IMG/VR virus record: IMGVR_UViG_3300036819_000014
Location: 1-50,072 of that record
DNA length: 50,072 nt
Strand: one strand, 5' to 3'
DNA from: a virus
This document shows positions 2,671 to 50,072 of the stretch, one piece after another. The first letter of the stretch is position 1; the number at the start of each line of letters is the position of its first letter. Made by a program: the position numbers and the translations under genes. Under the pieces are notes generated by a model. The model ran no database searches. It had not been told where the DNA came from and saw nothing but the letters and a program-made list of their open reading frames with translations.

Positions 2671-2698
2671 TTACTAGATATTCCGGAAAGGAATGTGG

Positions 2699-3364
2699 AT
2701 GGCGACTTCCGAGCCGTCTCAGAAGCAGCGAATGCTCTGGGCGAAGATGGGCTGGGCACTCCCAGACGGTTCTTATTACATTCGACCACTTGCCCAGGGT
2801 GGTGCTCAAGATGTTCAGAACGCGGTTCTGGCAATCGGTCGTGCCAAGCCCGGTCCGAATCAAAGCCAGACCGTTACTCAGGCACAGACTGCTGCTCGCC
2901 GACACGTCATTGCCCGGGCGAAGGTTCTGAATCTCTCAAGCAAGATCCCCGCGACTTGGAATGCTGACGGAACTCTCAAGCCTACGGCTGCGGCACAGTC
3001 CGCGACCACTGTCGACGAGTTCTTTGAGCATTTCGGGGTCAAGGGAATGAAGTGGGGTCGGCGAAAGGACTCAGCTCCAAAGGCGCCGGCATCAGAAGAA
3101 TCAACAAAAACTACCGAAACTCGTGCCAAGGCCAAGGCGAGCGGTTCATCATCACTGTCGAACAAGGAACTTCAGGACGCGGTTACTCGCCTGAATCTTG
3201 AGCGACAGTACGCTTCACTAACTACCAGCGATCTGAGTGTAGGCAAGCGTCTCGCTCTCGAAATCACCGGCACCGGCGGCAGCATCGCCAAGCAGCAGGC
3301 CAATCAGGTAGCTCAGCAGCAGTCAGCGAAGCTTGTCAAGAAGCTCATCGAGAACGCAGGTTAG
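2699..3364 (+). CDS. Head-associated protein with HFGVKGMKWG tag
   Basis: 221 aa. ATG 2699 is chosen over ATG 2693 because AAGGA then has normal 6-nt spacing. Order: a domain with ALPDGSYYI, DVQNAVLAIGRAK and RRHVIARAKVL (about 20-95), typical of proteins tied to phage head morphogenesis; the short motif FFEHFGVKGMKWGRR (about 107-121); a low-complexity Ala/Lys/Ser linker; and a helical C-terminus. The tag occurs in many phage structural proteins and its role is unknown. A head or ejection protein is likely. Confidence 0.65.
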   Translation: MATSEPSQKQRMLWAKMGWALPDGSYYIRPLAQGGAQDVQNAVLAIGRAKPGPNQSQTVTQAQTAARRHVIARAKVLNLSSKIPATWNADGTLKPTAAAQSATTVDEFFEHFGVKGMKWGRRKDSAPKAPASEESTKTTETRAKAKASGSSSLSNKELQDAVTRLNLERQYASLTTSDLSVGKRLALEITGTGGSIAKQQANQVAQQQSAKLVKKLIENAG

Positions 3365-9465: not shown

Positions 9466-10131
9466 GTGACTGCCACTATTACCTGGGATGACGCTGGAAC
9501 TCGCGAATACGAGACCGGCATTGACCATGGCGTCCTCTATCCGTTCAACACGACGACTCACGCGTACGACACCGGTGTGGCCTGGAACGGTCTGACCGAG
9601 GTCGACGAGAAGCCCGATGGCGCGGATGCCAACGACACCTACGCCGACAACATCAAGTATCTGTCCATCCGTGCTGCTGAGACTTTCGGCGGGACGATCC
9701 AGGCATTGACCTATCCGGATGAGTTCGGACCGTGTGACGGTACTGTTGAGCCGTCTCTCGGCGTGTCTCTCGGCCAGCAGCCTCGCCAGACGTTCGGTCT
9801 GTCCTATCGGACACAGCTCGGCAACGACGAGGATTCTGCAGCGGGTTACAAGCTGCATCTCGTGTACGGTGCCACGGCGTCGCCGTCCGAGAAGGACTAC
9901 GCCACGATCAACGACAGTCCGTCTCCGGTTGCGTTCAGCTGGGACTTCACGTCGAACCCGGTTTCGGTGACTGGCTACGGTCCGGTTTCCCTGATCACGA
10001 TCGATTCGACTACGGCCGATTCCGCTCATCTGGCGGCACTCGAAGTGCTTCTGTACGGCAGTAGCAGTGTTGCTCCGGCTCTTCCGTCGCCGGACGCAAT
10101 TCTGACGTTGTTCGCGACTGACGGAAGCTGA
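9466..10131 (+). CDS. Major tail protein, copy 1 (high-expression codon use)
   Basis: 221 aa from GTG 9466 with AGGGA 5 nt upstream. Signature segments: WDDAGTREYETGIDHGVLYP, GVAWNGLTEVDEKPDGADA, YADNIKYLSIRAAETFGGTI and ALTYPDEFGPCDG. Family members polymerise as stacked hexamers to form the tail tube. The gene uses C-ending codons strongly, as the capsid gene does, implying very high expression. A diverged paralogue lies at 10716. The C-terminus lacks that paralogue's extra Ig-like domain. Confidence 0.88.
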   Translation: MTATITWDDAGTREYETGIDHGVLYPFNTTTHAYDTGVAWNGLTEVDEKPDGADANDTYADNIKYLSIRAAETFGGTIQALTYPDEFGPCDGTVEPSLGVSLGQQPRQTFGLSYRTQLGNDEDSAAGYKLHLVYGATASPSEKDYATINDSPSPVAFSWDFTSNPVSVTGYGPVSLITIDSTTADSAHLAALEVLLYGSSSVAPALPSPDAILTLFATDGS

Positions 10132-10715: not shown

Positions 10716-11507
10716 ATGTCGGCTATTGTGTGGGACGATACGGGCGAGAGATTGTTCGAACTGGGAATCGATCGCGGCGTTCTGTATGTTGACAATCAGC
10801 CCGGTGTTCCGTGGAACGGTCTTTCTGAGATCGAGGAAAAGCCGACCGGCGGTTCTGCAACACCGTATTACCTTGACGGTGAAAAGTACCTGAACGTTCC
10901 GTCCTCCGAAGAATTCGCCGGAACAATTACAGCATACACTTATCCAGACGAGTTTCTGCCGTGTGACGGAACTCAGCAAGCAGACATAGGCTTGTTCGTT
11001 GCAAGTCAGCCTCGAGTTCCGTTCAATCTTACTTACCGGACACTTGTCGGTAATGACACTTCAGGCACAAGCTATGCGTACAAGATTCACCTGATTTACA
11101 ATGCGCTAGCAGAACCATCAACTCGAGATAATAAGACTCTTTCGTCGAGTGCTGCTGATCCTACTGAATTTGCGTGGGATATTTCGGTCAGTCCGATTCA
11201 GCTACCCGGTTACAAAAGCTCCGGGCATCTTATATTCGATACTGAGGTAGCTCATCCTGGCGCAGTTGTTCAGCTTGAGCAGCTTTTGTATGGAACCGAT
11301 ACGACCGACCCAGCATTCCCGGCATTCAGTGATATTCTTGCTATTATCGCCGAGAATGCGAACATCATGGTTGTCGATAACGGTGATGGCACTTATACAC
11401 TGACCGCCGACGATGACGCTCTGACCATTTCCGGTGGAACATTCACCGTCGAGTCGAATGCCGTAACTGATAACGGCAATGGAACATTCACCATTAGCAC
11501 CATCTAG
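10716..11507 (+). CDS. Major tail protein paralogue, copy 2, with C-terminal extension
   Basis: 263 aa with an AGGAG site. It aligns with copy 1 along its first ~210 residues (WDDTGERLFELGIDRGVLY, GVPWNGLSEIEEKPTG, AYTYPDEFLPCDG, TYRTLVGND) and then carries about 50 extra residues with two NGDGTYTL/NGNGTFTI-type beta repeats, like Ig-like tail decorations. Codon use is ordinary, unlike copy 1, implying lower expression. It may be a minor tube subunit, a decorated variant or a tail-tip adaptor. The paralogy is visible, the role is inferred. Confidence 0.75.
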   Translation: MSAIVWDDTGERLFELGIDRGVLYVDNQPGVPWNGLSEIEEKPTGGSATPYYLDGEKYLNVPSSEEFAGTITAYTYPDEFLPCDGTQQADIGLFVASQPRVPFNLTYRTLVGNDTSGTSYAYKIHLIYNALAEPSTRDNKTLSSSAADPTEFAWDISVSPIQLPGYKSSGHLIFDTEVAHPGAVVQLEQLLYGTDTTDPAFPAFSDILAIIAENANIMVVDNGDGTYTLTADDDALTISGGTFTVESNAVTDNGNGTFTISTI

Positions 11508-14092: not shown

Positions 14093-14473
14093 ATGGCGTT
14101 CGGCATAACATCAACCGGTTCTTTCAATAACATGGATCGTTTCCTCAATTTCCTCAAGGGTTTCAGCCTGGGTGATATTCTAGGCCAGTACGGTCAAATG
14201 GGCGTCGAAGCTTTGGCTGCTGCTACACCTGAGCGTACTGGCCTAACGGCTGAATCCTGGGGATACGAGGTTACGAACTCCGGTGGTGACTGGAAAATCA
14301 CCTGGACGAACACAAACATCAACGAGGGTGTCGCAATCGCGATCCTTATTCAGTACGGCCACGGCACGGGAACTGGCGGTTACGTGCAAGGCTATGACTT
14401 TATCAACCCTGCGATCCAGCCTATATTTGACCAGATCGCAAACGGAGTGTGGAAGGCGGTGACTTCAGCATGA
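14093..14473 (+). CDS. Tail component next to tape measure (HK97 gp10-like or similar)
   Basis: 126 aa. The ATG at 14093 follows a GAAAGGA site. ALAAATPERTGLTAESWGYEV, ITWTNTNINEGVAIAILIQYGHG and GYDFINPAIQPIFDQIA resemble gp10-like tail completion components: an amphipathic N-terminus, then an alpha/beta core. It overlaps the tape measure start by ATGA. Assignment to a specific ring is uncertain. Confidence 0.6.
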   Translation: MAFGITSTGSFNNMDRFLNFLKGFSLGDILGQYGQMGVEALAAATPERTGLTAESWGYEVTNSGGDWKITWTNTNINEGVAIAILIQYGHGTGTGGYVQGYDFINPAIQPIFDQIANGVWKAVTSA

Positions 14474-17400
14474 GTAGTGTCGATGAGAGAATCGTCGATA
14501 TGGAGTTCAAGGCGACGAGCTTCCTGACGAGTGTTTCATCAGTTATATCGGCATTGGCCAAGCTGAAGAGCAGCCTGAACCTCACCGGTGCAGAAGAAAG
14601 CATTAACGATCTCGATGCTGCGGGAAAGAAGTTCTCCCTATCTGGGATGGCTTCCGCTGCCGAAAGTGTCGGGTCGAAGTTCGGTGCCCTGGGTGTTCTA
14701 GGTGTTTCAGCTCTGGCAACGATTGCCAGTAAGGCTGTAAGCGCCGGCATTGATCTCGTTAAAGGTTTCACGATCGATCCAATTCTGGAAGGTCTTGATA
14801 CTTACGAACAGAAGATCAATGCCATCCAGACGATTCTGGCGAACACCCAGTCTGAAGGAACGAACCTCAGCCAGGTTACCGGTGCACTGAACAACCTGAA
14901 CACTTACGCCACCAAGACTGTTTATAACTTCGGTCAGATGGCGCAGAGCATCGGCACGTTCACCGCGGCTGGTGTCGATCTTCAGACCTCGGTCTCGTCC
15001 ATTAAAGGTATTGCCAACCTGGCAGCCCTTTCAGGTTCTAGTGCTGAGCAAGCTTCTACTGCGATGTACCAGCTATCGCAGGCTATCGCTTCTGGTTCTG
15101 TTAAACTTCAGGACTGGAACTCGGTTGTGAATGCTGGTCTTGGTGGTAAGGTCTTCCAGAATGCTCTGGAGCAGACTGCCAAGGCAACTGGCGTCAACAT
15201 CGACGCAATTATCAAGAAGGCCGGCAGCTTCAGGAACTCGCTGCAAGAAGGCTGGCTTAGTACCAAGATCCTGACTCAGACGCTAGACACGTTTACCGGT
15301 GACTTGTCCGCTAGCCAGCTCAAGGCTATGGGCTATACGAACCAGCAAACTGCAGCCATCCTGAAGCAGGCAGCAGCTGCCGTACAATCTGCTACACAGG
15401 TTCGTACGATCAGTCAACTCCAGCAGGACCTAACGGAGGAGGTTGGTACTGCTTGGGGCGCAATCTTTCAGGCTCTGATTGGTAACATCACTCAGGCTAC
15501 CGCGTTGCTGTCTAGTGTTCACAATGTTCTTGAGAACGCCTTTACCAAGCCTATCTATGACTTGGCTGCTCTACTTCAGCTTTGGAATCAGCTTGGCGGT
15601 CGTGCTGATGTCATCCAAGGTCTTTCCAATCTCTTCAAAGCTTTCAGTGTCGTCATTGATGCAGTCAAAGAAGCTTTCACCGACGTCTTTCCGCCGGCAA
15701 CAGCACAAGACCTTGTCGCATTGTCGAAGGATTTCGAAGATCTAACAGCGGCTTTGATTCCTAGCAAGGAGCAAGCCGGTCTCATTCGAGACATCTTCAT
15801 CGGCCTGTTCTCCGCAGTCAAAATAGTACTAGATGTGATTGGCGGCATCGCCAAGGGTTTCTCTGGTGTCGGGTCTGCTGCTGAATCTGGTGTGGGCGGC
15901 GTAACAGCTATAGCAGCTCATATTGCCGACTTCATTAATGAAGCTCTTCAGTTCGTCGAGGGCAATGCTAACTTTACTAATGCCCTGAAAGACATCGGCG
16001 AAGTTCTTAGTGCCCCGATCAAGCTTCTTGGCTTGGCTGCTGGTGCCGTTACTGACCTCGGATCTGCGGTTGAAGCTGCCTGGAAGTTCATCGAGCCATT
16101 TGCAGATGAAGTCGGAGCTGAATTCAGTAAGCTCGGGTCTGCGATTGCTGACGCAATCAACGGTGGCGGAATCTCGAACATCGAGAACATCCTTAACCAA
16201 GGCATATTTGCCCTGATTCTTCTTCAGGTTAAGAAGTTCATTGCTAACCTGGGTAAGGGCGAAGATGAAGAGAAGCCGGGCTTCCTAGACACGATTAAGG
16301 AGTCGTTCGAAAGCCTGACGACAACGTTGCATTCTATGCAGCAGACTCTGAAGGCCACGATTCTGCTCGAAATTGCTGCGGCGGTTGGTGTGCTGACTGC
16401 TTCTGTGATTGCTCTGTCGTTCATCAATGCCGCAAAGCTTACACAGGCTTTGACTGCGATCACGTTCATGTTCACCGAACTTCTCGCCGGCATGGCAGTG
16501 ATTAGCAAGGTCGCAGGATCCGAAGGCATCCTCAAGATGCCTATCATCGCGTTCTCGCTGAATCTTCTTGCTACCGCTATCCTGATCCTGAGTGCGGCAG
16601 TTGTTATTCTCGCTGCGTTCAGCTGGGAAGGTCTTGGCAAGGGCATCGCGACCATTGCCGTTCTTCTGGCAGAGCTCGTGGTTGCTGTCCGAACCATGGG
16701 AACTGACAGTGCAAATCTGATTGCTTCAGCATATTCCATGGAAGTCATGGCTACGGCGCTGAACATTTTGGCTATCGCTGTCAGAACTCTCGGCAAGCTT
16801 GATATCGGCACTCTCGCTAAGGGTGTCGGAACGATCGCTGCGCTTCTTCTAGTGCTTGCTGCTTTCCAGAAGATAGGCGGTGGCGAGAACCTAATAACGA
16901 CGGCAGCATCGATGGTTATTGTCGGTGCGGCACTAAACATCATCGCGGCTGCTATTGGCAAGCTTGGCGCTATGTCCTGGGAATCGCTAGCCAAGGGAAT
17001 GGTTTCGGTAGCGACGGCTCTTGCTGTCATATCTGCCGACATGATTCTCATGGAAGGTTCACTCCCAGGTGCAGTAGCCATTCTGGTCGTATCTGCAGCG
17101 CTGGTTGTCCTGGCTCAGGCTATGACTACCTTTGGCGGAATGTCGTGGGATCAGATCGCGAAGTCTCTCGTCGAGCTAGCGGCGTCACTAATCATCATAT
17201 CCGCGGCGATGGTTCTCATGGAAGCTGCTTTGCCTGGTGCAGCTGCGCTTCTTGTTGTAGCCGCATCATTGGCTATTCTGGCGCCTGTTCTTATCGCTCT
17301 GGGCAGCCTATCCTGGTCACAGCTTCTAATATCGCTGGCCGGTTTGGCTGGCACGCTACTCATTCTCGGTGGCGCATCTCTCGTTCTGGCACCGCTTATT

Positions 17401-18669
17401 CCGGTTATGCTCGGTCTCGGGCTTGCCATCGCATTGTTCGGTGTCGGAATTCTAGCCGCCGGCGCCGGAGTGCTCGCGTTCGCTCTAGGCTTGACCGCTC
17501 TTGCAGCCGCAGTGACCGCATCAGGGTTGGCGATCACCGCATTTGTTAGTGCGATAATCGGGCTTATTCCGCTCGCGATAACGCAGTTCGGTGTCGGCCT
17601 TATCGATCTGGCAGGCGTAATCGGCAATGGCGGACCAGCCATTACGAAGGCTTTCCAGGCACTATTGCTAGCACTGCTTAATGCAGTAATAGCTGTAACA
17701 CCGAAGATCGTGCAGGCAGTTGAGGTTATTCTTACTCAGCTTATCGCACTCATCGGCAAGGAAACGACGCCGGCCATCAATGCGATGACGACGTTGACTC
17801 TCAAGTTGCTTGCTGCGATTACGTCCAGGGCTGGCCAGTTTACAACAGCGGGTGCTAATGCTCTTATCGCAGTTATCAACGGCATATCCAAGCAGATTGG
17901 CCGTATCGCCACTGCTGGCGGTAATGCGGCTATATCTTTCATCAATGCCATTGGCGCGCAGGCCGGTCGTATCGACGCTGCCGGCGTCAACATGGTTATC
18001 AACCTCGTAAATGGTCTAGCCAATACGATCCGGAGTGACTCGGGTCGTATGCACGCTGCTGGAGAGAACCTGGCGTCGGCCATTATCGAAGGCATGATAT
18101 CCGGCATGTCTGGTGGTATCGGCGGCGTTGAGGCTGAGGCCAAGGCCGTTGCCGAGTCTGCTCTGAACGCCGCTAAGAATTTCCTGGGCATTCATTCGCC
18201 TTCGAAACGATTCGAGCAAGAAGTTGGCGAAGAGTCCGGCTCAGGAATCGCTGTCGGCTTTATCAACATGGTCGGAACTATTACCGACGCGGCAACTACA
18301 GTAAGCAAGAAGGCTCTGGGCGCATTCCAGGAGAACCTGTCCAATGTCAGCGACATTGTCAATGAGAATCTGGATATTCAGCCGACTATTACGCCAGTGA
18401 TCGATCTGACTCAGGCTCAGAGTGGCCTTTCCGCACTGAACAACCTGACGAAGAACCAGCTTCTGTCTGCCAATGTATCGACGAACAAGGCTACGTCTAT
18501 ATCTGCCGAGAACGCTGCAACAGCTGAAGAAGCTGGCCTGATCACGCCAACCGGTTCGAATCTCACCTTCAACCAGTACAACAATTCGCCAAAGTCTTTG
18601 TCTACTGCAGATATTTACAGGCAGACCAAGAACCAGCTCAGCGTCGTGAAGGAGGCTCTGCCTAAGTAA
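14470..18669 (+). CDS. Tape measure protein
   Basis: 1399 aa from ATG 14470 (ATGA overlap). The N-terminal tape-measure domain has YEQKINAIQTILANT, VYNFGQMAQSIGTFTAAGVD and GSVKLQDWNSVVNAGLGG. Residues ~620-1040 are a long series of hydrophobic Ala/Leu/Ile helices with a recurring MSWE/LSW..L.KG..... unit, typical of membrane-inserting regions. The C-terminus holds FLGIHSPSKRFEQEVGEESG. Tape length sets tail length: at about 1.5 A per residue this predicts roughly 200 nm. It is also expected to help DNA cross the host envelope. Confidence 0.93.
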   Translation: MSSVDERIVDMEFKATSFLTSVSSVISALAKLKSSLNLTGAEESINDLDAAGKKFSLSGMASAAESVGSKFGALGVLGVSALATIASKAVSAGIDLVKGFTIDPILEGLDTYEQKINAIQTILANTQSEGTNLSQVTGALNNLNTYATKTVYNFGQMAQSIGTFTAAGVDLQTSVSSIKGIANLAALSGSSAEQASTAMYQLSQAIASGSVKLQDWNSVVNAGLGGKVFQNALEQTAKATGVNIDAIIKKAGSFRNSLQEGWLSTKILTQTLDTFTGDLSASQLKAMGYTNQQTAAILKQAAAAVQSATQVRTISQLQQDLTEEVGTAWGAIFQALIGNITQATALLSSVHNVLENAFTKPIYDLAALLQLWNQLGGRADVIQGLSNLFKAFSVVIDAVKEAFTDVFPPATAQDLVALSKDFEDLTAALIPSKEQAGLIRDIFIGLFSAVKIVLDVIGGIAKGFSGVGSAAESGVGGVTAIAAHIADFINEALQFVEGNANFTNALKDIGEVLSAPIKLLGLAAGAVTDLGSAVEAAWKFIEPFADEVGAEFSKLGSAIADAINGGGISNIENILNQGIFALILLQVKKFIANLGKGEDEEKPGFLDTIKESFESLTTTLHSMQQTLKATILLEIAAAVGVLTASVIALSFINAAKLTQALTAITFMFTELLAGMAVISKVAGSEGILKMPIIAFSLNLLATAILILSAAVVILAAFSWEGLGKGIATIAVLLAELVVAVRTMGTDSANLIASAYSMEVMATALNILAIAVRTLGKLDIGTLAKGVGTIAALLLVLAAFQKIGGGENLITTAASMVIVGAALNIIAAAIGKLGAMSWESLAKGMVSVATALAVISADMILMEGSLPGAVAILVVSAALVVLAQAMTTFGGMSWDQIAKSLVELAASLIIISAAMVLMEAALPGAAALLVVAASLAILAPVLIALGSLSWSQLLISLAGLAGTLLILGGASLVLAPLIPVMLGLGLAIALFGVGILAAGAGVLAFALGLTALAAAVTASGLAITAFVSAIIGLIPLAITQFGVGLIDLAGVIGNGGPAITKAFQALLLALLNAVIAVTPKIVQAVEVILTQLIALIGKETTPAINAMTTLTLKLLAAITSRAGQFTTAGANALIAVINGISKQIGRIATAGGNAAISFINAIGAQAGRIDAAGVNMVINLVNGLANTIRSDSGRMHAAGENLASAIIEGMISGMSGGIGGVEAEAKAVAESALNAAKNFLGIHSPSKRFEQEVGEESGSGIAVGFINMVGTITDAATTVSKKALGAFQENLSNVSDIVNENLDIQPTITPVIDLTQAQSGLSALNNLTKNQLLSANVSTNKATSISAENAATAEEAGLITPTGSNLTFNQYNNSPKSLSTADIYRQTKNQLSVVKEALPK

Positions 18670-22712: not shown

Positions 22713-22740
22713 CTCGCGTGAATTTCAAGGACTATAATGA
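22713..22740 (+). promoter_or_regulatory. Early promoter-like element P1
   Basis: CTCGC at 22713-22717, exactly 15 nt, TATAAT at 22733-22738, then GA. One of six near-identical elements in the window (the others at 23201, 24441, 27543, 35192 and 42332). The -10 is a perfect bacterial consensus, while the upstream box is not a TTGACA-type -35. It precedes the small gene at 22764. Confidence 0.75.
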
Positions 22741-22763
22741 GATTCCACCGAAAGGAAAGATTC

Positions 22764-23069: not shown

Positions 23070-23101
23070 CAGATCAGACCTGAGAAGAGTCAAAATGGGA
23101 G

Positions 23102-23155
23102 TCCCGAGTGTTTAACTGAGCAAAAATCAAGTTGACACTCGGGATTTCTGTTTTT
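23102..23155 (+). terminator. Intrinsic terminator
   Basis: tcccgagtgt (23102-23111) pairs perfectly with acactcggga (23135-23144). The stem can extend inward through ttaact/agttga with a bulge, and is followed by a T-rich tail (tttctgttttt). It ends the P1 transcript, just before P2. Confidence 0.75.
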
Positions 23156-23200
23156 ACAGTTGGTATCAAAAAATTCCCGCGGGGTAAGATCCGGTAAAAC

Positions 23201-23228
23201 CTCGCAAGAAAAACATGGTGTATAATGA
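23201..23228 (+). promoter_or_regulatory. Early promoter-like element P2
   Basis: CTCGC 23201-23205, 15 nt, TATAAT 23221-23226, GA. It contains GTGTATAATG, an extended -10. It drives the membrane gene at 23267. Confidence 0.75.
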
Positions 23229-23266
23229 ACCTGAACCCAGTATTCATCAACGTAAGGATAAACGTA

Positions 23267-24292: not shown

Positions 24293-24494
24293 CTGGATCG
24301 TCAGGCTATTTCCGAGACTGGGGACATTCCTGGTCTGGATCCTGGTACCATATCTCATCGCCGCCGGAGTCTTGATCGCTCATAAAAGGCTCCGCGGGTC
24401 ATCCAAGCCGAAGCGAGAAGCTCTTGCGATCGGGCGAGAGTTCGCAGACATTACAAGGCATATAATGAAACCCATTATGCCTAAGAGAGGTTAA
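24291..24494 (+). CDS. Membrane segment ORF with unresolved start
   Basis: This frame is open here and encodes a convincing transmembrane helix (LGTFLVWILVPYLIAAGVLI) and a basic C-terminus ending HIMKPIMPKRG, but no ATG, GTG or TTG lies before the helix; the first TTG is at 24372. Options are a rare start codon, a +1 frameshift at the end of the upstream DUF6353 gene (an AAGG precedes its TAG), or a damaged gene. Its 3' part contains promoter P3. Confidence 0.4.
   Translation, partial: SWIVRLFPRLGTFLVWILVPYLIAAGVLIAHKRLRGSSKPKREALAIGREFADITRHIMKPIMPKRG
24441..24468 (+). promoter_or_regulatory. Early promoter-like element P3
   Basis: TTCGC 24441-24445, 15 nt including ACAAGG, TATAAT 24461-24466, GA. 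It is embedded in the 3' end of the preceding open frame and drives the 55-aa gene at 24499. Confidence 0.7.
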
Positions 24495-27542: not shown

Positions 27543-27570
27543 CTCGCACGAAAAACAAGGACTTTAATGA
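27543..27570 (+). promoter_or_regulatory. Early promoter-like element P4
   Basis: CTCGC 27543-27547, 15 nt including CAAGG, TTTAAT 27563-27568 (one change from TATAAT), GA. It precedes a ~145-nt structured leader before the second DUF6353 gene. Confidence 0.7.
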
Positions 27571-27571
27571 A

Positions 27572-27690
27572 GTGAAGTCCGCTTCCAGATCCCGGTAACA
27601 AGGGGTCTTAGTTTATATTGAGGGGATTACCCAGAGTCCTGGTAATCTTAAACGACAGAAGCCGGCGCAGGCGCGTCAACTTGTGCCCTC
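27572..27690 (+). ncRNA. Structured leader RNA candidate
   Basis: Downstream of P4 and before the DUF6353 gene. Consecutive hairpins: gaag/cttc (27574-27585); agatccc/ggggtct (27587-27593 with 27602-27608, one G-T pair); gattacc/ggtaatc (27625-27631 with 27641-27647); ggcgca/tgtgcc (about 27663-27687). There is no convincing open frame. It could be a leader regulating the downstream gene or an independent small RNA. Confidence 0.45.
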
Positions 27691-29609: not shown

Positions 29610-30070
29610 TCAGTGGTCTGATGCACAATATCGAATTCAACGATAGCGTGCACAATGATGACAATCGTTCCGCGGAAGGCAGAGAGCTGCGATTTGAATT
29701 CATCGATGATACACAAGATCTCGGTGAATTCGACCCTGAAGAATGGGACTTCATATCTAGTCCAGCAACTCTCTTCGAGGTGCTCGTAGCTCTCTGCCGT
29801 CGGCTTGACTTCCAGGCTGAGCTTGGTGTCAGCAACTGGTACTACGTACTCATCCAGAATCTGGGCTTGAAACAGTACGCGGACAATGATGTGGCTTCTT
29901 CACAGAAGGGTTCCATCACTCGCAAGCTTAACAAGCTCAATAACAGGACATATTCCGCCGACGGTAGAGGTGGTTTGTTTCCGCTCAAAGACCCGCCAAA
30001 CGATCAGCGAACAGTCGAGCTATGGTACCAGATGTCGTACTACATTCTCGAGAACGATCTAATCCAATAA
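29513..30070 (+). CDS. Conserved phage hypothetical preceding the replication gene
   Basis: 185 aa, ATG after GAGAAAG. DEAYFEWLYDHAHPERRRGA, KLAYTIVSGLMHNIEF, DDNRSAEGRELRFEFIDDT, TLFEVLVALCRRLDF, NWYYVLIQNLGLKQYAD. I recognise this as a widespread phage protein of unknown role, often upstream of replication genes. Alpha-rich and acidic. Confidence 0.65.
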   Translation: MLQEPIDEAYFEWLYDHAHPERRRGAKLAYTIVSGLMHNIEFNDSVHNDDNRSAEGRELRFEFIDDTQDLGEFDPEEWDFISSPATLFEVLVALCRRLDFQAELGVSNWYYVLIQNLGLKQYADNDVASSQKGSITRKLNKLNNRTYSADGRGGLFPLKDPPNDQRTVELWYQMSYYILENDLIQ

Positions 30071-35191: not shown

Positions 35192-35219
35192 CTCGCGAGA
35201 AACGCAAGGTGTATAATGA
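35192..35219 (+). promoter_or_regulatory. Early promoter-like element P5
   Basis: CTCGC 35192-35196, 15 nt, TATAAT 35212-35217, then GAGAGATA. The sequence from TATAATGAGAGATA is shared with P6. It precedes a structured RNA region and then the 35342 gene. Confidence 0.75.
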
Positions 35220-35300
35220 GAGATAATCGACTCGGAGCCTATAGCAGGCACCAGTCTATCGGACCACTGTGTACCGGTAGGAGTCGACTATCTCTCACTA
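35213..35300 (+). ncRNA. Structured RNA element with GAGAGATA closing arms
   Basis: Arms 35218-35233 and 35281-35296 are complementary over 16 bp with one A-C mismatch, and pairing can extend outward into the TATAAT box (second A-C mismatch). Inside lie gcct/aggc (loop atagc) and a cagt/actg or gtc/gac hairpin (loop containing ctatcgg). An A-run (35311-35318) follows, then GGGAGA before the next gene. If transcription starts ~7 nt after the -10, the RNA keeps 10 bp of the closing stem. Shares promoter and arms with the element at 42353. Confidence 0.5.
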
Positions 35301-41303: not shown

Positions 41304-41900
41304 ATGTTCGGAAAGATCATCAAGATCATCCTGCCCGTCGCCGGTTTCGCCATATTCGCTAAGGCGGCCTTCGAGTTTAAGCAGGAGCGAGAGGCTCAGT
41401 ACTTCGCAGACCGGGCACTAGACTCTCGCATCACCGAGCTCACCAGCGAATTCCAGCGAGTGGAGTCAGGTCGCGGTCTCGACCAGGACAACCTCACGGC
41501 GTGGAAGCTTGAGCTGGAGCACTACGCCACTGAGAATTTCGAAGACCTGAAGATCAGTACAGCAGTCGCTGTCAAGCAGGCTCAGGCCGAAGTAAGGAAG
41601 GCTACGAAGCTGCACAAGGAAGTCTCGGAGAATCTTGTCGAGAAGTACAACGACAATCTGCGTCTGGTCAATGCACACGAAACTGCTCTTCGAGACGTTT
41701 ACAAGACTCTCAAAAACCAGCAGGATCATCTTTCGCTACTTACCGAGAGGCTCGAAAAGATCGAGAAGTTCGATCGGGACGCATTTCTCGAGATCTTCAG
41801 TGAAGCACGAAAGAAGATCGAGCAGCTGGACAAAGAGATGGACCGCGTTCGCGCTGAGCCTCAGAACGAGAACACTCCGCCGGAGAATTCGCAGGAATAG
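41304..41900 (+). CDS. Membrane-anchored coiled-coil protein
   Basis: 198 aa with CTGGAGGAA upstream. N-terminal hydrophobic anchor (about 5-22, IIKIILPVAGFAIFAKAAF), then almost continuous coiled coil (VAVKQAQAEVRKATKLHKEV; LLTERLEKIEKFDRDAFLEI; KKIEQLDKEMDRVRA). Cytoplasmic rod tethered to the membrane. It could act as a scaffold for replication or lysis control; no family known. Confidence 0.6.
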   Translation: MFGKIIKIILPVAGFAIFAKAAFEFKQEREAQYFADRALDSRITELTSEFQRVESGRGLDQDNLTAWKLELEHYATENFEDLKISTAVAVKQAQAEVRKATKLHKEVSENLVEKYNDNLRLVNAHETALRDVYKTLKNQQDHLSLLTERLEKIEKFDRDAFLEIFSEARKKIEQLDKEMDRVRAEPQNENTPPENSQE

Positions 41901-41963
41901 CAAATCGCATAACGAGAGACTATTCTGTCTTTCATATTCTCGACAACTGTTATCGGGAGAGTC

Positions 41964-42344
41964 ATGAACGAGAAGATCGAAAAGATCAAGAAGCACATCG
42001 TTGAGAACAAGCTTGTCTATATCCTCGGCGCAGGCGCGTTCGCTGCGGGAACTGGCGTGGGACTCACGATCGGAATTCGCCAGATCGTGGTGACTGATGT
42101 CGCGAATGTCAAGTGGCATTCTCCGACTATAAACAACATCATCGCTTCGGTGGAACGGCGCGGTCATCCTGGAAACGTCATCCGCTGCAATGAGACTGGT
42201 GAGATATTTGCTAGCCAGAACCATGCGGCGAAGCTGATGGGCCTCAATCCCGGAAGTCTTTCAAGTCACCTTAGCGGTAAGTACGACCACGCGAATGGCT
42301 ACACCTTCGAGAAGCTGGGCGAAGCCGTAACCTCGCAAGAGTAA
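41964..42344 (+). CDS. Membrane protein with NUMOD1-like DNA-binding domain
   Basis: 126 aa. Basic start, a transmembrane helix at about 17-40 (LVYILGAGAFAAGTGVGLTI), then a C-terminal HTH-type module: VIRCNETGEIFASQNHAAKL, MGLNPGSLSSHLSGKYDHAN, GYTFEKLG. The latter fits NUMOD1/IENR-like modules that bind DNA in homing endonucleases. Here there is no nuclease, so the protein may tether phage DNA to the membrane. Confidence 0.65.
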   Translation: MNEKIEKIKKHIVENKLVYILGAGAFAAGTGVGLTIGIRQIVVTDVANVKWHSPTINNIIASVERRGHPGNVIRCNETGEIFASQNHAAKLMGLNPGSLSSHLSGKYDHANGYTFEKLGEAVTSQE

Positions 42345-42359
42345 CAAGCACTATAATGA
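42332..42359 (+). promoter_or_regulatory. Early promoter-like element P6
   Basis: CTCGC 42332-42336, 15 nt, TATAAT 42352-42357, then GAGAGATA as in P5. It overlaps the 3' end of the NUMOD1-like gene and precedes the triple-hairpin RNA. Confidence 0.75.
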
Positions 42360-42462
42360 GAGATAGCCCTAAGCGCCCGTTAAGGGTACTTGAAAAGACG
42401 CCCGTTAAGGGTATCAGATCCCATCGTTCGTTAAGGCGATGGTTAGAGCTATCTCTCATTAT
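42353..42462 (+). ncRNA. Triple GTTAA-hairpin RNA element
   Basis: A perfect 15-bp inverted repeat bounds the element (42353-42367 with 42448-42462). Inside are three successive hairpins: agcgccc-GTTAA-gggtact (42372-42390), gacgccc-GTTAA-gggtatc (about 42398-42415) and ccatcg...c-GTTAA-g...cgatgg (42421-42442). The first two have differing outer pairs but the same C-A mismatch. All three present a CGTTAAG apex. Under P6; no open frame. The 5' arm overlaps the -10 box, so a DNA-level role is also possible. Confidence 0.6.
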
Positions 42463-45420: not shown

Positions 45421-45597
45421 GACGTCAAAACGGCAAAACTAATGGGTCAATAAAAGTCGCTCAGTGAAATACTTTATACTAGTCAATTTATAGTATATAC
45501 TCTATATTTTCAGCTAGGTATATACTACTTCTTGACTAGTATAAAGTATTCTACGGAGCGTCTTTATATGGGGGCTTAGTTTTGCCGTTTTGACGTC
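45421..45597. repeat. 177-bp imperfect palindrome with TAGTATA motifs (candidate origin)
   Basis: Three perfect inverted-repeat tiers share one centre at 45509: 20 bp (45421-45440 with 45578-45597), 19 bp (45468-45486 with 45532-45550) and 10 bp (45491-45500 with 45518-45527). The intervening 27-nt arms are equal in length and match at 16 positions. TAGTATA occurs four times inside (45475-45481 and 45521-45527 inverted; 45491-45497 and 45537-45543 direct). AT-rich core. Origin, resolution site or bidirectional terminator are possible. Confidence 0.7.
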
Positions 45598-46142: not shown

Positions 46143-46161
46143 TAGTATAAGGTAGTATAAG
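46143..46161. repeat. Tandem TAGTATAAG repeats after the HNH gene
   Basis: TAGTATA at 46143-46149 and 46153-46159, 10-bp period, same 7-mer as in the palindrome on the other side of the HNH gene. Together these would be six copies, iteron-like. The rest of the gap to 46245 shows nothing else that I can name. Confidence 0.5.
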
Positions 46162-46245
46162 AAACTTACCCTCTAATGAATAGAGTAGAATAGGCCTCCT
46201 CTGATCATCACCAGCTCATCTTATAGTCTTTCGAAGGAGGATGAG

Positions 46246-46572
46246 ATGGCTAACATAGAGAGCCGATTCCAGGCAGAGATCATCAAGGACATCCGCAAGA
46301 TGTTCAACGGCTGCATCATACTCAAGAACGACGCATCATATCTTCAGGGCGTTCCGGACTTGCTGGTCTTGTTCGGAACCACCTGGGCAGCTCTTGAGTG
46401 CAAGGCAAACCCGCGAGCATCAAGGCAGCCGAATCAAGACTATTACGTAGCGAAGTTGAACGACATGTCTTTCGCTGCATTTGTCTTCCCGGAAAACAAG
46501 GACGATATTCTCCATGGACTTCAACTCGCATTTCGATCTGCGAGGAAAGCACGCATTTCTCAGCGCGTCTAA
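46246..46572 (+). CDS. VRR-NUC / PD-(D/E)XK nuclease
   Basis: 108 aa with AAGGAGG upstream. MANIESRFQAEIIKDIRKMF supplies the leading Glu helix; GVPDLLVLFGTTWAALECKA gives PD...ExK (Asp ~38, Glu51, Lys53). VRR-NUC-type enzymes cleave branched or flap DNA. Located with helicase and Cas4-like genes, it likely acts in recombination or Holliday junction resolution. It overlaps the next gene by 59 nt. Confidence 0.75.
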   Translation: MANIESRFQAEIIKDIRKMFNGCIILKNDASYLQGVPDLLVLFGTTWAALECKANPRASRQPNQDYYVAKLNDMSFAAFVFPENKDDILHGLQLAFRSARKARISQRV

Positions 46573-47068
46573 CTATCACTGGATCAATTACGATGCTGTG
46601 AAGCTAGACGAGGTTTACCGTAACTCGCTTGCCGCGATGCACGGAACAGAACTCCACGCGTTCGCTCACGAAGCCATTCGTCTCGGCATCAAACTTCCGA
46701 AGACGCAGAAGACACTGAACATGTACGTGAACGACGCAATCGGCTATCGCATGAATCCCGAGCAGATTCTATATTACTCGGACAACTGTTATGGTACCGC
46801 TGATGCTATTAAGTATCGTAACAATCTTCTTCGCATCCACGACCTCAAGACTGGTGTCAATCCTGGATCGGTGCATCAGCTTGAGGTCTATGCGGCTATA
46901 TTCTGCCTCGAGTATGCAATGCGTCCTGGCGAGCTTGAGATTGAGCTTCGCATATATCAGAATGATGAAGTCATCGAGTTCAATCCCGAACCCGAAATTA
47001 TCATCAAAATCATGAGCACTATTATATCTTTCGACAAGCGGATCGAACTTCTCAAGGCTGAGATCTAA
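46514..47068 (+). CDS. Cas4/AddB-like PD-(D/E)XK exonuclease
   Basis: 184 aa from ATG 46514. GKHAFLSASNYHWINYDAVK, GTELHAFAHEAIRLGIKLP, then the catalytic part GTADAIKYRNN (Asp ~97) and LRIHDLKTG (Asp ~110, Lys ~112), followed by VHQLEVYAAIFCLEYAM, the QxxxY motif. Members trim DNA ends in recombination. It lacks the Cys cluster of true Cas4. Common in siphophages beside polymerase and helicase genes. Confidence 0.78.
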   Translation: MDFNSHFDLRGKHAFLSASNYHWINYDAVKLDEVYRNSLAAMHGTELHAFAHEAIRLGIKLPKTQKTLNMYVNDAIGYRMNPEQILYYSDNCYGTADAIKYRNNLLRIHDLKTGVNPGSVHQLEVYAAIFCLEYAMRPGELEIELRIYQNDEVIEFNPEPEIIIKIMSTIISFDKRIELLKAEI

Positions 47069-47086: not shown

Positions 47087-49771
47087 GTGGTAATTGACGA
47101 AGACTCATATTTGATGCACTACGGTGTTCTTCGCAGATCGGGTCGCTATCCATGGGGATCGGGAAATACTCCTTACGAGCGCAGTTCCGGATTTCTCGGC
47201 GCAGCGGACGATCTCAAACGACAGGGACTTAGCGAAGTTGATATCGCTAAAGGTCTCGGTCTCGACTCAACAACACAGCTTCGTGCTGTACGCGCAATCG
47301 CGAAGAATCAGGTTCGTGCCGCTGATTCCGCTCAGGCTCTTCGTCTGAAGAACAAGGGCATGAGCAATGTCGCCATCGGTCAGCAGATGCATATTAACGA
47401 ATCATCGGTTCGTTCTCTGCTTGATCCTGCACTCGCAGACAAACGCGATATTCTGCAGACAACGGCGAACCTGCTTAAAGACAAAGTCGGAGAAGACGGT
47501 TACCTAGACATCGGATCGGGAACCGAGAACAACCTGTCTATATCTCAGACTAAGCTCGCGACCGCAGTTGAGGTTCTGAAGGAAGAAGGATATGAGGTCC
47601 ACAACGTCCAGGTCACTCAGCTGGGAACTGGAAACAAGACCACTATCAAAGTCCTTGCGCCTCCAGGCACAACCTATCGAGACATCGTCCGCAACCCATC
47701 GAACATCAAAAGTGTTGCTGCATATTCTGATAGTGATGGCCGAGACTATACGCCAGTCAAGCCTCCCGTTGGCATTGATCCTGATCGTGTGGGCGTGCGC
47801 TTTGCCGAACAAGGTGGAACCAACGCTGACGGCGTCATCTACGTACGCCGCGGCGTTTCTGACGTCTCGCTAGGCACAGCAAAATATGCTCAGGTTCGGA
47901 TCAAGGTCGGCGACGACAACTATCTTAAAGGCATGGCAATGTACAACGACGATATGCCAGAAGGCGTTGACTTGTTGTTCAACACGAACAAGAGTGAATC
48001 AAAGGGCAAGATCGGTGCCATGAAGCCGATCAAGGACGACCCTACGAATCCGTTCGGTGCCATCACCCGGCAGAAAACATATGTCGACAGCGATGGCAAA
48101 GAGAAGCAGTCGGTCATGAATATCGTCAATGAAGAAGGCGATTGGAAAGACTGGTCTCGTACACTGTCAAGTCAGATGCTGTCCAAGCAGGATCCGGCTT
48201 TGGCTAAGAAGCAACTTGATATTGCATACAACTCAATGAAAGACGAGTTTAGCACGATCAAGGGACTGACAAATCCTGTCGTCAAGAACAAGCTTCTGTC
48301 ATCGTTCGCCGATGGTGCTGAATCAGCTTCGGTCCATCTCAAGGCCGCTGCACTTCCGAGTCAGGCAACGCATGTTATATTGCCACTTGAGAAAATAAAA
48401 GAGAACGAAGTCTATGCGCCGAACTATCCAGACGGAACTCGTGTAGCCCTAGTTCGATTTCCTCATGGTGGAACATTCGAGATTCCAGAACTCACCGTTA
48501 ACAATAAGAACTCAGAAGCAAAGTCCAGTATCGACCGAGCAGTCGACGCTATCGGTATCCATCCGAAGGTTGCGTCTCGCTTGTCTGGTGCGGACTTTGA
48601 CGGTGACACAGTTCTGGTTATTCCGAACAATGACAAGAAGATTCGCACATCGCCGCCACTCAAGGATCTAGAAGACTTCGATCCTCAGTCTGCCTATCCA
48701 AAATATGATGGCATGAAAGTGATCTCGCCTCGTGCCAAGCAACAGCAAATGGGCGACGTTTCGAATCTGATTACGGATATGACAGTCAAGGGTGCTAAGC
48801 CAGAAGAACTGGCACGAGCAGTCAAGCATTCTATGGTTGTCATTGACTCTGAGAAGCATGAGCTTAACTACAAGCAGTCGTATACCGATAACGGTATCGC
48901 TAGTCTCAAAGCAAAATATCAGGGTGTCGGTGAGACCGGTCGTCTTAAAGGCGCATCCACCATCATCTCCAAGTCTGGTAACGCCACAGTCAAGGTTCCT
49001 GAGCGCCGTCTTCAGAAAGCTAGTGAAGGCGGTTCTATAGATCCGGTTACCGGTAAGAAAATATACCGTGAGACTGGCGCAACCTACACAGACAAGACTG
49101 GCAAGACACGACAGAAGCTGTCTGATAGCAAGCCACTGCTAGAGACTGATGATGCATTCACCCTGTCGTCTGGAACGGCCATGGAGAATATCTATGCCGC
49201 ACACAGCAACAAGCTGAAGGCATTGGCAGACAGTGCAAGGAAAGCTAGCCTTAGTACTGGAAGCCAAAAATCATCCCCCACCGCTAAGAAAACGTATGCC
49301 TCACAGGTAGACAGCTTGAATGCCAAACTAAACACGGCCCTCAAGAACAAGCCTAAAGAACGGCAGGCGCAGCTTCTAGCAAACGCCATAGTCTCAGCGA
49401 AGACCCAGGACAACCCTGGCATGGAGTCGGCTGACCTCAAGAAGGTCAAGGGTCAAGCACTCACAACTGCAAGAAACAGAATTGGAGCACAAAAGGAAGT
49501 TATTGACATCACACCTGATGAGTGGACTGCTATCCAAGCAGGTGCTGTGACTGCTAACAAGTTGTCATCAATCATTGACAATGCTAATCTAGATCAAGTC
49601 AAGGAACTAGCAACACCTAAGACTAAGCTAGAGGTCACACCAGCTAAGCTAGCAAGAGCTCAGTCGATGCTCGATTCTGGTTACACACAGGCAGAGATCG
49701 CTCGTGCCCTTGGCATTCCTACTTCAACACTCAACGAAGCAATACTTGGTGAAGGAGCGTACAGTGGCTGA
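47087..49771 (+). CDS. Putative single-chain RNA polymerase-like protein with HTH domains
   Basis: 894 aa from GTG 47087 (AAGGAGGT). A tag-like opening (LMHYGVLRRSGRYPWGSG) is followed by two HTH modules (~30-75 and ~78-113; NKGMSNVAIGQQMHINESSV), then a lysine-rich beta segment (YLKGMAMYNDDMPEGVDLLF then NTNK, ~283-306) and AIGIHPKVASRLSGADFDGD then TVLVIP, ending about 513. ADFDGD at 502-507 is the metal-binding signature of double-psi beta-barrel polymerases. AKQQQMGDVSNLITDM and a C-terminal HTH (~855-890) follow. Polymerase activity is inferred from the motif. Confidence 0.6.
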   Translation: MVIDEDSYLMHYGVLRRSGRYPWGSGNTPYERSSGFLGAADDLKRQGLSEVDIAKGLGLDSTTQLRAVRAIAKNQVRAADSAQALRLKNKGMSNVAIGQQMHINESSVRSLLDPALADKRDILQTTANLLKDKVGEDGYLDIGSGTENNLSISQTKLATAVEVLKEEGYEVHNVQVTQLGTGNKTTIKVLAPPGTTYRDIVRNPSNIKSVAAYSDSDGRDYTPVKPPVGIDPDRVGVRFAEQGGTNADGVIYVRRGVSDVSLGTAKYAQVRIKVGDDNYLKGMAMYNDDMPEGVDLLFNTNKSESKGKIGAMKPIKDDPTNPFGAITRQKTYVDSDGKEKQSVMNIVNEEGDWKDWSRTLSSQMLSKQDPALAKKQLDIAYNSMKDEFSTIKGLTNPVVKNKLLSSFADGAESASVHLKAAALPSQATHVILPLEKIKENEVYAPNYPDGTRVALVRFPHGGTFEIPELTVNNKNSEAKSSIDRAVDAIGIHPKVASRLSGADFDGDTVLVIPNNDKKIRTSPPLKDLEDFDPQSAYPKYDGMKVISPRAKQQQMGDVSNLITDMTVKGAKPEELARAVKHSMVVIDSEKHELNYKQSYTDNGIASLKAKYQGVGETGRLKGASTIISKSGNATVKVPERRLQKASEGGSIDPVTGKKIYRETGATYTDKTGKTRQKLSDSKPLLETDDAFTLSSGTAMENIYAAHSNKLKALADSARKASLSTGSQKSSPTAKKTYASQVDSLNAKLNTALKNKPKERQAQLLANAIVSAKTQDNPGMESADLKKVKGQALTTARNRIGAQKEVIDITPDEWTAIQAGAVTANKLSSIIDNANLDQVKELATPKTKLEVTPAKLARAQSMLDSGYTQAEIARALGIPTSTLNEAILGEGAYSG

Positions 49772-50072
49772 TGCCGATGAACACATGCTGACTACCACTG
49801 ACAATCCATACGATCCCTTCACACAGTGGGATGAGTGGTGGCAGTACGATACTTCAAAAGGCTACAACTCATCTAGCTATCTTGCTAGAATCTGTAATAC
49901 TTCGATCGATTTGTCAGATCTTGACAATGATCAAGCAATCGAAGATGCAATTGACGAAATTGTAAAACTAAATATTAATGGCATGTACACAAAAGCTGTT
50001 AAGAAAAATTTAGTTTTAGAAAATTTCTGCAATCCGGGGGAGGTCATGAAAATTTCTGACCCCCCTATGCAT
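49764..50072 (+). CDS. Conserved phage protein, open at the right end
   Basis: GTG 49764 with GAAGGAG, overlapping the RNA-polymerase-like gene. 103 codons to the end, no stop. TTTDNPYDPFTQWDEWWQYD and YNSSSYLARICNTSIDLSD then DAIDEIVKLNINGMYTK match a conserved acidic protein often encoded near packaging genes in siphophages. It probably continues at position 1. The last ~150 bp are AT-rich, unlike the rest of the window. Confidence 0.7.
   Translation, partial: MADADEHMLTTTDNPYDPFTQWDEWWQYDTSKGYNSSSYLARICNTSIDLSDLDNDQAIEDAIDEIVKLNINGMYTKAVKKNLVLENFCNPGEVMKISDPPMH

Follow-up and report, generated by a model that had tools for sequence, protein, structure and literature searches.

What is the function of a large phage protein that carries helix-turn-helix (HTH) domains on both sides of an RNA polymerase-like signature, and could it be the enzyme that uses the promoter-like repeats found in the same genome? 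The question is raised by IMG/VR virus record IMGVR_UViG_3300036819_000014, positions 1 to 50,072, whose 50,072 nucleotides (nts) were analyzed over their whole length and are hereafter called the window. A sequence-only reading of the window had pointed to a DFDGD motif in the product of the gene listed below, and had proposed a one-chain double-psi-barrel RNA polymerase as the user of six non-standard promoters, P1-P6. Our analysis indicates that this so-called HTH phage protein is almost certainly a complete single-chain RNA polymerase, a distant relative of the cellular enzyme.

47087..49771, + strand: RNA polymerase gene, single-chain two-barrel, 894 amino acids, GTG start (PHROG 4291 match, structural model, Foldseek)

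A polymerase family deposited mostly as HTH proteins

The 894-residue open reading frame matched PHROG 4291 over its full length in a profile search (1285 bits). A total of 250 phage records match this family, and the relatives are full-length in 249 of them. Most depositors label them HTH or hypothetical proteins; some RefSeq records carry the name "RNA-dependent RNA polymerase", which is transferred by similarity without a promoter or virion role attached to it. Cellular RNA polymerase has its simplest relatives in the single-chain two-barrel enzymes. The kind is already known in phages (YonO, P23-45) and the family is already numbered in the database. What is new, as far as the searched literature shows, is the recognition of a widespread "HTH protein" as a polymerase with a conserved candidate cognate promoter across host phyla, along with a hint that the polymerase is carried in the virion. 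The family alignment used below comprises 136 sequences (identity to the first sequence down to 44%), and the profile used for hhalign and the Pfam member counts were derived from 46 sampled family members.

The catalytic core

The predicted core consists of the following parts:

47834..48133, + strand: partner (beta-like) barrel, residues 250-349 (model strands; invariant R271, K281-G282, P291 and D295)
48365..48625, + strand: catalytic (beta'-like) barrel, residues 427-513 (six model strands; hhalign with P23-45 gp64 and beta')
48593..48607, + strand: DFDGD metal-binding loop, residues 503-507 (invariant in 136 sequences)
48749..48859, + strand: MGDVSNLITDM...HSMVVIDSEKH helices, residues 555-591 (aligned to the QDE-1/RdRP segment past the catalytic loop; Pfam RdRP match at 494-594)

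All peptides on which the proposal had been built were located where it had placed them: GTRVALVRFP at residues 450-459, TFEIPELTV at 463-471, and ADFDGD at 502-507, between IGIHPKVASRLSG (489-501) and TVLVIP (508-513). The three putative metal-binding Asp residues (D503, D505 and D507) are invariant across the family alignment, as are R271, K281, G282, P291, D295 and many residues within 555-593. Therefore, DFDGD is not a chance pentapeptide.

The AlphaFold2 model of the polymerase has a predicted local distance difference test score of 88 and a predicted template-modeling score of 0.81, with disorder limited to the first 33 residues, the loop 212-222 and the last four C-terminal residues. 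The strands of the partner barrel are found at residues 250-253, 267-274, 278-286, 296-299, 328-333 and 339-349. A lysine-rich segment at 283-306 had been suggested as this barrel; the segment (MAMYNDDMPEGVDLLFNTNKSESK) does lie inside it but is not lysine-rich, and the basic residues of the barrel are R271 and K281, both invariant, and K302, which is nearly so. A Foldseek search of the PDB at E<=1e-3 gave six matches, every one a two-barrel RNA polymerase, which bears out the proposed architecture. These include QDE-1 (1.2e-7), polymerases of the P74 gp62/P23-45 gp64 type (approximately 1e-6) and two RDR2 enzymes from maize and Arabidopsis; the weaker PDB matches are mostly largest subunits of cellular RNA polymerases.

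Comparison of the family profile with Escherichia coli beta' by hhalign aligned residues 487-511 to beta' 445-468 (50% identity, pairwise E=0.021) and placed the DFDGD loop on NADFDGD, i.e., the beta'-like arrangement that had been noticed in the sequence. With P23-45 gp64, an E-value of 0.002 was obtained over 78 columns including GADFDGD. The kinship to YonO-type enzymes holds at the level of the superfamily but not of sequence, as hhalign of the 46-sequence profile with YonO gave E=0.079 and an alignment away from the active site. Profile comparison with RpoB (beta) gave nothing at the barrel; a likeness of LKGMAMYNDDMP..VDLLFN to beta NKGVIS...EDMP..VDIVLN is one judged by eye only. Sequence searches of the PDB with either the single protein or the profile returned at best HTH or designed proteins, besides one weak match of residues 481-513 to a tape-measure-protein chain (E=0.52). 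In Pfam, RdRP (PF05183) was the sole catalytic family matched: the window protein scored 20.0 bits, below the gathering cut-off of 23.8, and 26 of the 46 family members matched at E<=0.01. A T7-like palm-domain polymerase was matched neither in Pfam nor among the 50 Foldseek PDB matches listed. A tape-measure-fused virion RNA polymerase of the P23-45 gp96 type is ruled out, the polymerase being a stand-alone protein and the tape measure a separate open reading frame (14449-18669). The pairwise E-values are modest by themselves; it is in combination with the structural match and the invariance of the key residues that the polymerase assignment becomes safe. On the basis of sequence and model, the protein can thus safely be placed in the two-double-psi-barrel RNA polymerase superfamily, with predicted catalytic activity.

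Among known systems, QDE-1 (the Neurospora RNAi polymerase, PDB 2j7n) and plant RDR2 (Foldseek E-values of 1.2e-7 and 3e-5) resemble the phage protein in having two barrels in one chain and a Pfam RdRP signal that extends across the catalytic loop and the next helices. However, identity is approximately 14%, the Pfam score of the window protein is sub-threshold, and the phage protein adds HTHs at both ends, an N-terminal tag and accompanying promoter-like elements. The non-virion RNA polymerases of Thermus phages, P23-45 gp64 and P74-26 gp62 (PDB 8f72 and 8f5m), are the second-best fold match and have promoter motifs of their own (PMC10770324), whereas structural identity is 11-13%, the template-modeling score by query length is 0.25-0.28, and no HTH domains are mentioned in the paper text searched (PMC10770324). 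In addition, gp64 was undetected in the P23-45 virion (PMC10770324), while a homologue of the window protein has been deposited as structural. YonO of Bacillus phage SPbeta is a single-chain, DxDxD-dependent, DNA-directed RNA polymerase of approximately 100 kDa (PMC5467207) and, like the window protein, belongs to the single-chain DxDxD phage enzymes of this superfamily. It differs in lacking a sequence-level match at the active site and in transcribing late genes from promoters of unknown sequence (PMC5467207), whereas the elements in the window precede early and middle genes.

HTH modules

47192..47254, + strand: N-terminal HTH 1, residues 36-56 (model helices 36-45 and 50-56; PHROG HTH matches)
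47366..47422, + strand: N-terminal HTH 2, residues 94-112 (model helices 94-101 and 105-112; Pfam HTH_28/GerE matches)
49640..49750, + strand: C-terminal HTH, sigma70 region-4-like, residues 852-888 (model; 44 of 46 members match Sigma70_r4_2 at E<=0.01)

The three HTH modules that had been predicted from the sequence are recovered as helical units of the model at approximately 36-56, 94-112 and 852-892, and Pfam and PHROG matches to HTH or sigma70 region 4 are present at both ends of the protein.

A candidate promoter element in the window

P1-P6 are copies of TCGC(A/G)nAAAwwACAnGnCC-TATAATGAGA (repeat family D1). Sites were scored with fixed matrices and checked against shuffles and the reverse strand, since plain expectation-maximization motif discovery had yielded untrustworthy additional sites where a genome contains few copies.

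22714..22742, + strand: promoter element P1, matrix score above shuffles
23202..23230, + strand: promoter element P2, matrix score above shuffles
24442..24470, + strand: promoter element P3, matrix score above shuffles
27544..27572, + strand: promoter element P4, TTTAAT variant, matrix score above shuffles
35193..35221, + strand: promoter element P5, matrix score above shuffles
42333..42361, + strand: promoter element P6, matrix score above shuffles
29920..29948, + strand: weak candidate copy, score 18.2 (shuffled maximum 16.1)
41889..41917, + strand: weak candidate copy, score 19.4, above the shuffled maximum
46153..46181, + strand: tentative P7, 934 bp upstream of the polymerase gene, score 18.1 with the clostridial-type matrix and 8.8 with the actinophage matrix

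The six repeats are real by this measure, scoring 27-35.5 compared to maxima of 16.1 in 100 shuffles of the whole window and 3.9 on the reverse strand. The early/middle half of the genome holds all of these strong copies, the head-tail module none. The place of P7 agrees with the position of the element in relatives. A separate observation is that the region just upstream of P2 (approximately 23089-23165) contains a host-type promoter-like TTGACA-N17-TACAGT beside an imperfect inverted repeat (GTCAAAATGGGAGTCCCGAGTGT / ACACTCGGGATTTCTGTTTTTAC).

The element in other phages and in bacterial genomes

The same element was detected in 5 to 13 copies each in the polymerase-bearing phages Vardy (Gordonia), Arcadia (Arthrobacter), ReqiPoco6 (Rhodococcus) and Bilo (Streptomyces). 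The consensus of 279 unique sites is TCGC(A/G)nAAAwwACAnG(G/C)CC-TATAATGAGACCCC, in which the CGC, ACA and TATRAT parts were demanded by the search pattern, and the conserved T, A, G, CC, GA, A and C-run were not. Part of the contigs had been fetched with T0, G15, C18 and GA fixed, and independent support for those positions therefore comes from the isolate genomes. The Vardy intergenic TATAAT repeat belongs to the 50-bp/43-bp "sigma70-like" motif of Gordonia cluster DJ (Vardy, Conley) and is the element found here; that motif, however, was reported as host-type and for one cluster, with no link to a polymerase or to other hosts or phyla. The intergenic repeat of CaiB (cluster DR) has a different sequence and was rejected as the same element.

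Among viral contigs, at least 120 stretches contain the motif versus three containing the same pattern with spacing +2. The polymerase is present in all 21 motif contigs of at least 50 kb and, after discounting one spurious short match (G020), in 31 of the 42 of at least 32 kb. It was found in none of the 26 sigma70-pattern control contigs (17 of them at least 50 kb, 0/17) and in none of the three spacing-control contigs. When 50,697 INPHARED phage records were searched with the 43-nt consensus, 225 matched, including Arthrobacter (95), Gordonia (55), Streptomyces (54) and Rhodococcus (4) records; the tallies of the polymerase search are identical, a correspondence judged by genus and listed host-strain tallies, not record by record. 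Three further motif records in which the polymerase had not previously been seen were opened, and all three have the VRR-exonuclease-large gene-small gene module.

To cover other phyla, the upstream half was made into a 19-nt matrix trained on the actinophage and viral-contig set only, with no clostridial data. Of 78 bacterial-genome loci (mostly Clostridia; several are metagenome bins with unreliable host labels), 61 gave scores above 14, at a median of 948 bp upstream of the polymerase, where the copies precede the nuclease/exonuclease/polymerase operon. In the controls, the reverse strand stayed below 14 throughout, and shuffled maxima averaged 5.1, with single shuffles at times exceeding 14. 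The downstream half, which lies outside the matrix, reads TTTTAT in 40 of the 61 loci, TATAAT in eight and TGTTAT in seven. Viral-contig loci have the element above 12 at the same place in 31 of 95 cases, and weaker look-alikes occur in many more. In lactococcal P092 (L035 8818 and 14218) and 1706 (L195 3562 and 14310), ACA...CTATA(A/G)T(G/A)(A/G)A is kept and TCGC is lost, and this form is a natural variant for work on promoter specificity.

The N-terminal tag and possible virion carriage

47111..47164, + strand: N-terminal tag LMHYGVLRRSGRYPWGSG, residues 9-26 of the polymerase (near-invariant, predicted disordered; possible virion-packaging tag)
2693..3364, + strand: tagged protein (EHFGVKGMKWGRR), directly upstream of the terminase; positional counterpart of phage 1706 orf7

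The family form of the polymerase tag is LxHYGxxRxSGRYPxGSG. The polymerase homologue orf75 of Lactococcus phage 1706 was deposited as "structural protein" without the word "putative", which predicted functions in the same record do carry, and we hypothesize that this label reflects particle proteomics. The structural assignment in ReqiPoco6 was made by similarity only, and an "ORF75" matched in a paper (PVJ1) is an unrelated capsid protein. A second tag, LxH(H/Y/F)G(V/I)(K/L)GMKWGVRR (in shorter form LxH(H/Y)G(V/I)xGMKWG), was counted 82 times across 53 loci with the polymerase, commonly one to three times per locus, near the N terminus or internally in proteins that are otherwise unlike, and may serve packaging or processing. 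Its kinship to the polymerase tag, judged by eye, is hypothetical. Phage 1706 orf7 bears the tag twice and was deposited as a structural protein; its counterpart in the window has PHROG matches that lie N-terminally in a wide variety of unknown families. With more doubt than confidence, we suggest that the virions of a widespread class of phages might contain a one-chain, two-barrel RNA polymerase that needs no sigma factor. Its fused HTH modules would recognize a promoter shared by phages of actinobacterial through clostridial hosts, and a disordered tag related to the HHGxKGMKWG tag of other proteins in these phages would load it, such that transcription would start independently of the host enzyme.

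Which enzyme reads the element

We consider it probable, at roughly three chances in four, that the single-chain two-barrel protein is a DNA-dependent RNA polymerase that transcribes early and middle phage genes from its own class of promoter. From the computed family, fold and invariant catalytic residues, and from the motif with its co-occurrence and position, we infer catalysis, promoter recognition by the polymerase, self-amplification and virion delivery as follows. The DFDGD loop of the beta'-like barrel would face the beta-like barrel with R271/K281 for catalysis, as suggested by the fold and the invariant residues. Promoter choice would be made without a host sigma factor by the HTH modules at both ends, which would bind the approximately 29-nt element, TCGC(A/G)nAAAwwACAnGnCC followed by TATAATGA (actinophage) or TTTTATGA (clostridial). 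The enzyme, particle-borne or newly made, would open the AT-rich TATAATGA/TTTTATGA segment and transcribe the early and middle gene clusters that lie behind copies of the element, and the copy before the VRR-nuclease/exonuclease/polymerase operon in relatives would allow self-amplification. Less certainly, the conserved, disordered tag at the N terminus may direct some of the enzyme into the virion, to enter the cell along with the DNA for immediate transcription.

The element could instead belong to the host. Its TATAAT equals the canonical -10 hexamer, and in the Vardy and Conley genome papers the motif was interpreted as sigma70-type (PMC9671010, PMC10868162). P1-P6 would then be host sigma70-family promoters with a phage activator site (TCGC/ACA), read by host RNA polymerase, perhaps with a small phage HTH helper, and the two-barrel polymerase would serve elsewhere, e.g., in late transcription, as YonO does in SPbeta (PMC5467207). 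We regard this as unlikely. Among 283 motif sites, there is no enrichment of a -35 TTGACA at 16-18 bp (at least four of six positions matched in 4.9%, compared to 12% in shuffles), and an extended -10 (TGn) occurs at 1%; in 120 control sites of the sigma70 type, neither CGC nor ACA shows up at the offsets used by the motif. In clostridial phages, TTTTAT or TGTTAT stands in place of TATAAT, whereas TCGC and AAAACA are retained. Moreover, many relatives have the element ahead of the polymerase operon itself, the phage groups in which the motif was found all encode the polymerase, and the polymerase is the one obvious transcription enzyme common to all motif phages. The lack of a -35, the non-TATAAT clostridial forms, the sigma region 4-like HTHs, the element before the polymerase's own operon and this sharing together make the polymerase, judged by sequence evidence, very likely the best candidate reader. 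The proposal that it uses P1-P6 thus gains strong support from co-occurrence and from variation of the motif across phyla.

Much less probable is a role as RNA-dependent RNA polymerase, in line with the database name, or as an enzyme priming replication with RNA alongside the neighboring helicase, nuclease and primase-polymerase, even with QDE-1 as the best structural match, RdRP as the sole catalytic family in Pfam, and an operon shared with a VRR-nuclease and a Cas4 exonuclease. Such a role accords poorly with three DNA-binding HTH modules, sigma region 4-type matches among them, and with a primase-polymerase encoded by the phage itself; the related two-barrel phage enzymes YonO and P23-45 use DNA (PMC5467207, PMC10770324). 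A catalytically dead, polymerase-derived DNA-binding regulator would suit the HTH annotation given by most depositors, yet invariance across 136 sequences, with identity down to 44%, extends to the three Asp residues, the second barrel's basic residues and a large part of the post-loop segment, and we consider such a regulator very improbable indeed.

Several points weigh against a polymerase that transcribes from its own promoters. The Foldseek template-modeling scores are low (0.25-0.39), so that what is shared is the catalytic core and not the shape as a whole. P7, before the polymerase operon of the window itself, is weak, and the lactococcal relatives have a degraded motif only. Phages with the polymerase share many other genes by common descent, so co-occurrence alone cannot name the reader; the actinophage TATAAT is a perfect host -10, and host RNA polymerase may contribute. 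Virion location comes from one database label, and the idea that all "structural" proteins of phage 1706 are tagged was rejected, since orf62 and orf71, labeled like orf75, have no tag. No enzymatic data for any family member were present in the literature searched.

The family occurs in hundreds of phage records and in prophages, mostly mislabeled as HTH, and its candidate promoter is available in many natural variants that allow direct tests of DNA recognition without a sigma factor. The analysis outlines a likely transcription program for several large groups of actinobacteriophages, could yield a new orthogonal polymerase/promoter pair for GC-rich hosts, and makes an overlooked, widespread viral transcription system testable.

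Neighboring genes and other features of the window

46246..46572, + strand: VRR-Nuc nuclease gene, first of the polymerase operon (phrog_93; same order in relatives)
46481..47068, + strand: Cas4-family exonuclease gene (phrog_3953)
49776..50072, + strand: small conserved gene after the polymerase (PHROG 4303 match), running off the contig

In the examined relatives, the PHROG 4303 gene comes after the polymerase gene and right before the end of the genome, and its product is possibly an accessory subunit. Between the helicase and HNH genes (45421-45597), an AT-rich inverted repeat was observed, with 80-nt arms that are 80% complementary and a 17-nt loop; inverted repeats are located in the same interval in Bilo (L033 18307-18455), Vardy (L197 40435-40559) and ReqiPoco6 (L199 44959-45022). 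The repeat in the window is possibly a replication origin or a structured regulatory site. Finally, two major tail protein paralogues, both of PHROG 2645, are encoded 1.25 kb apart at 9466-10131 and 10716-11507.

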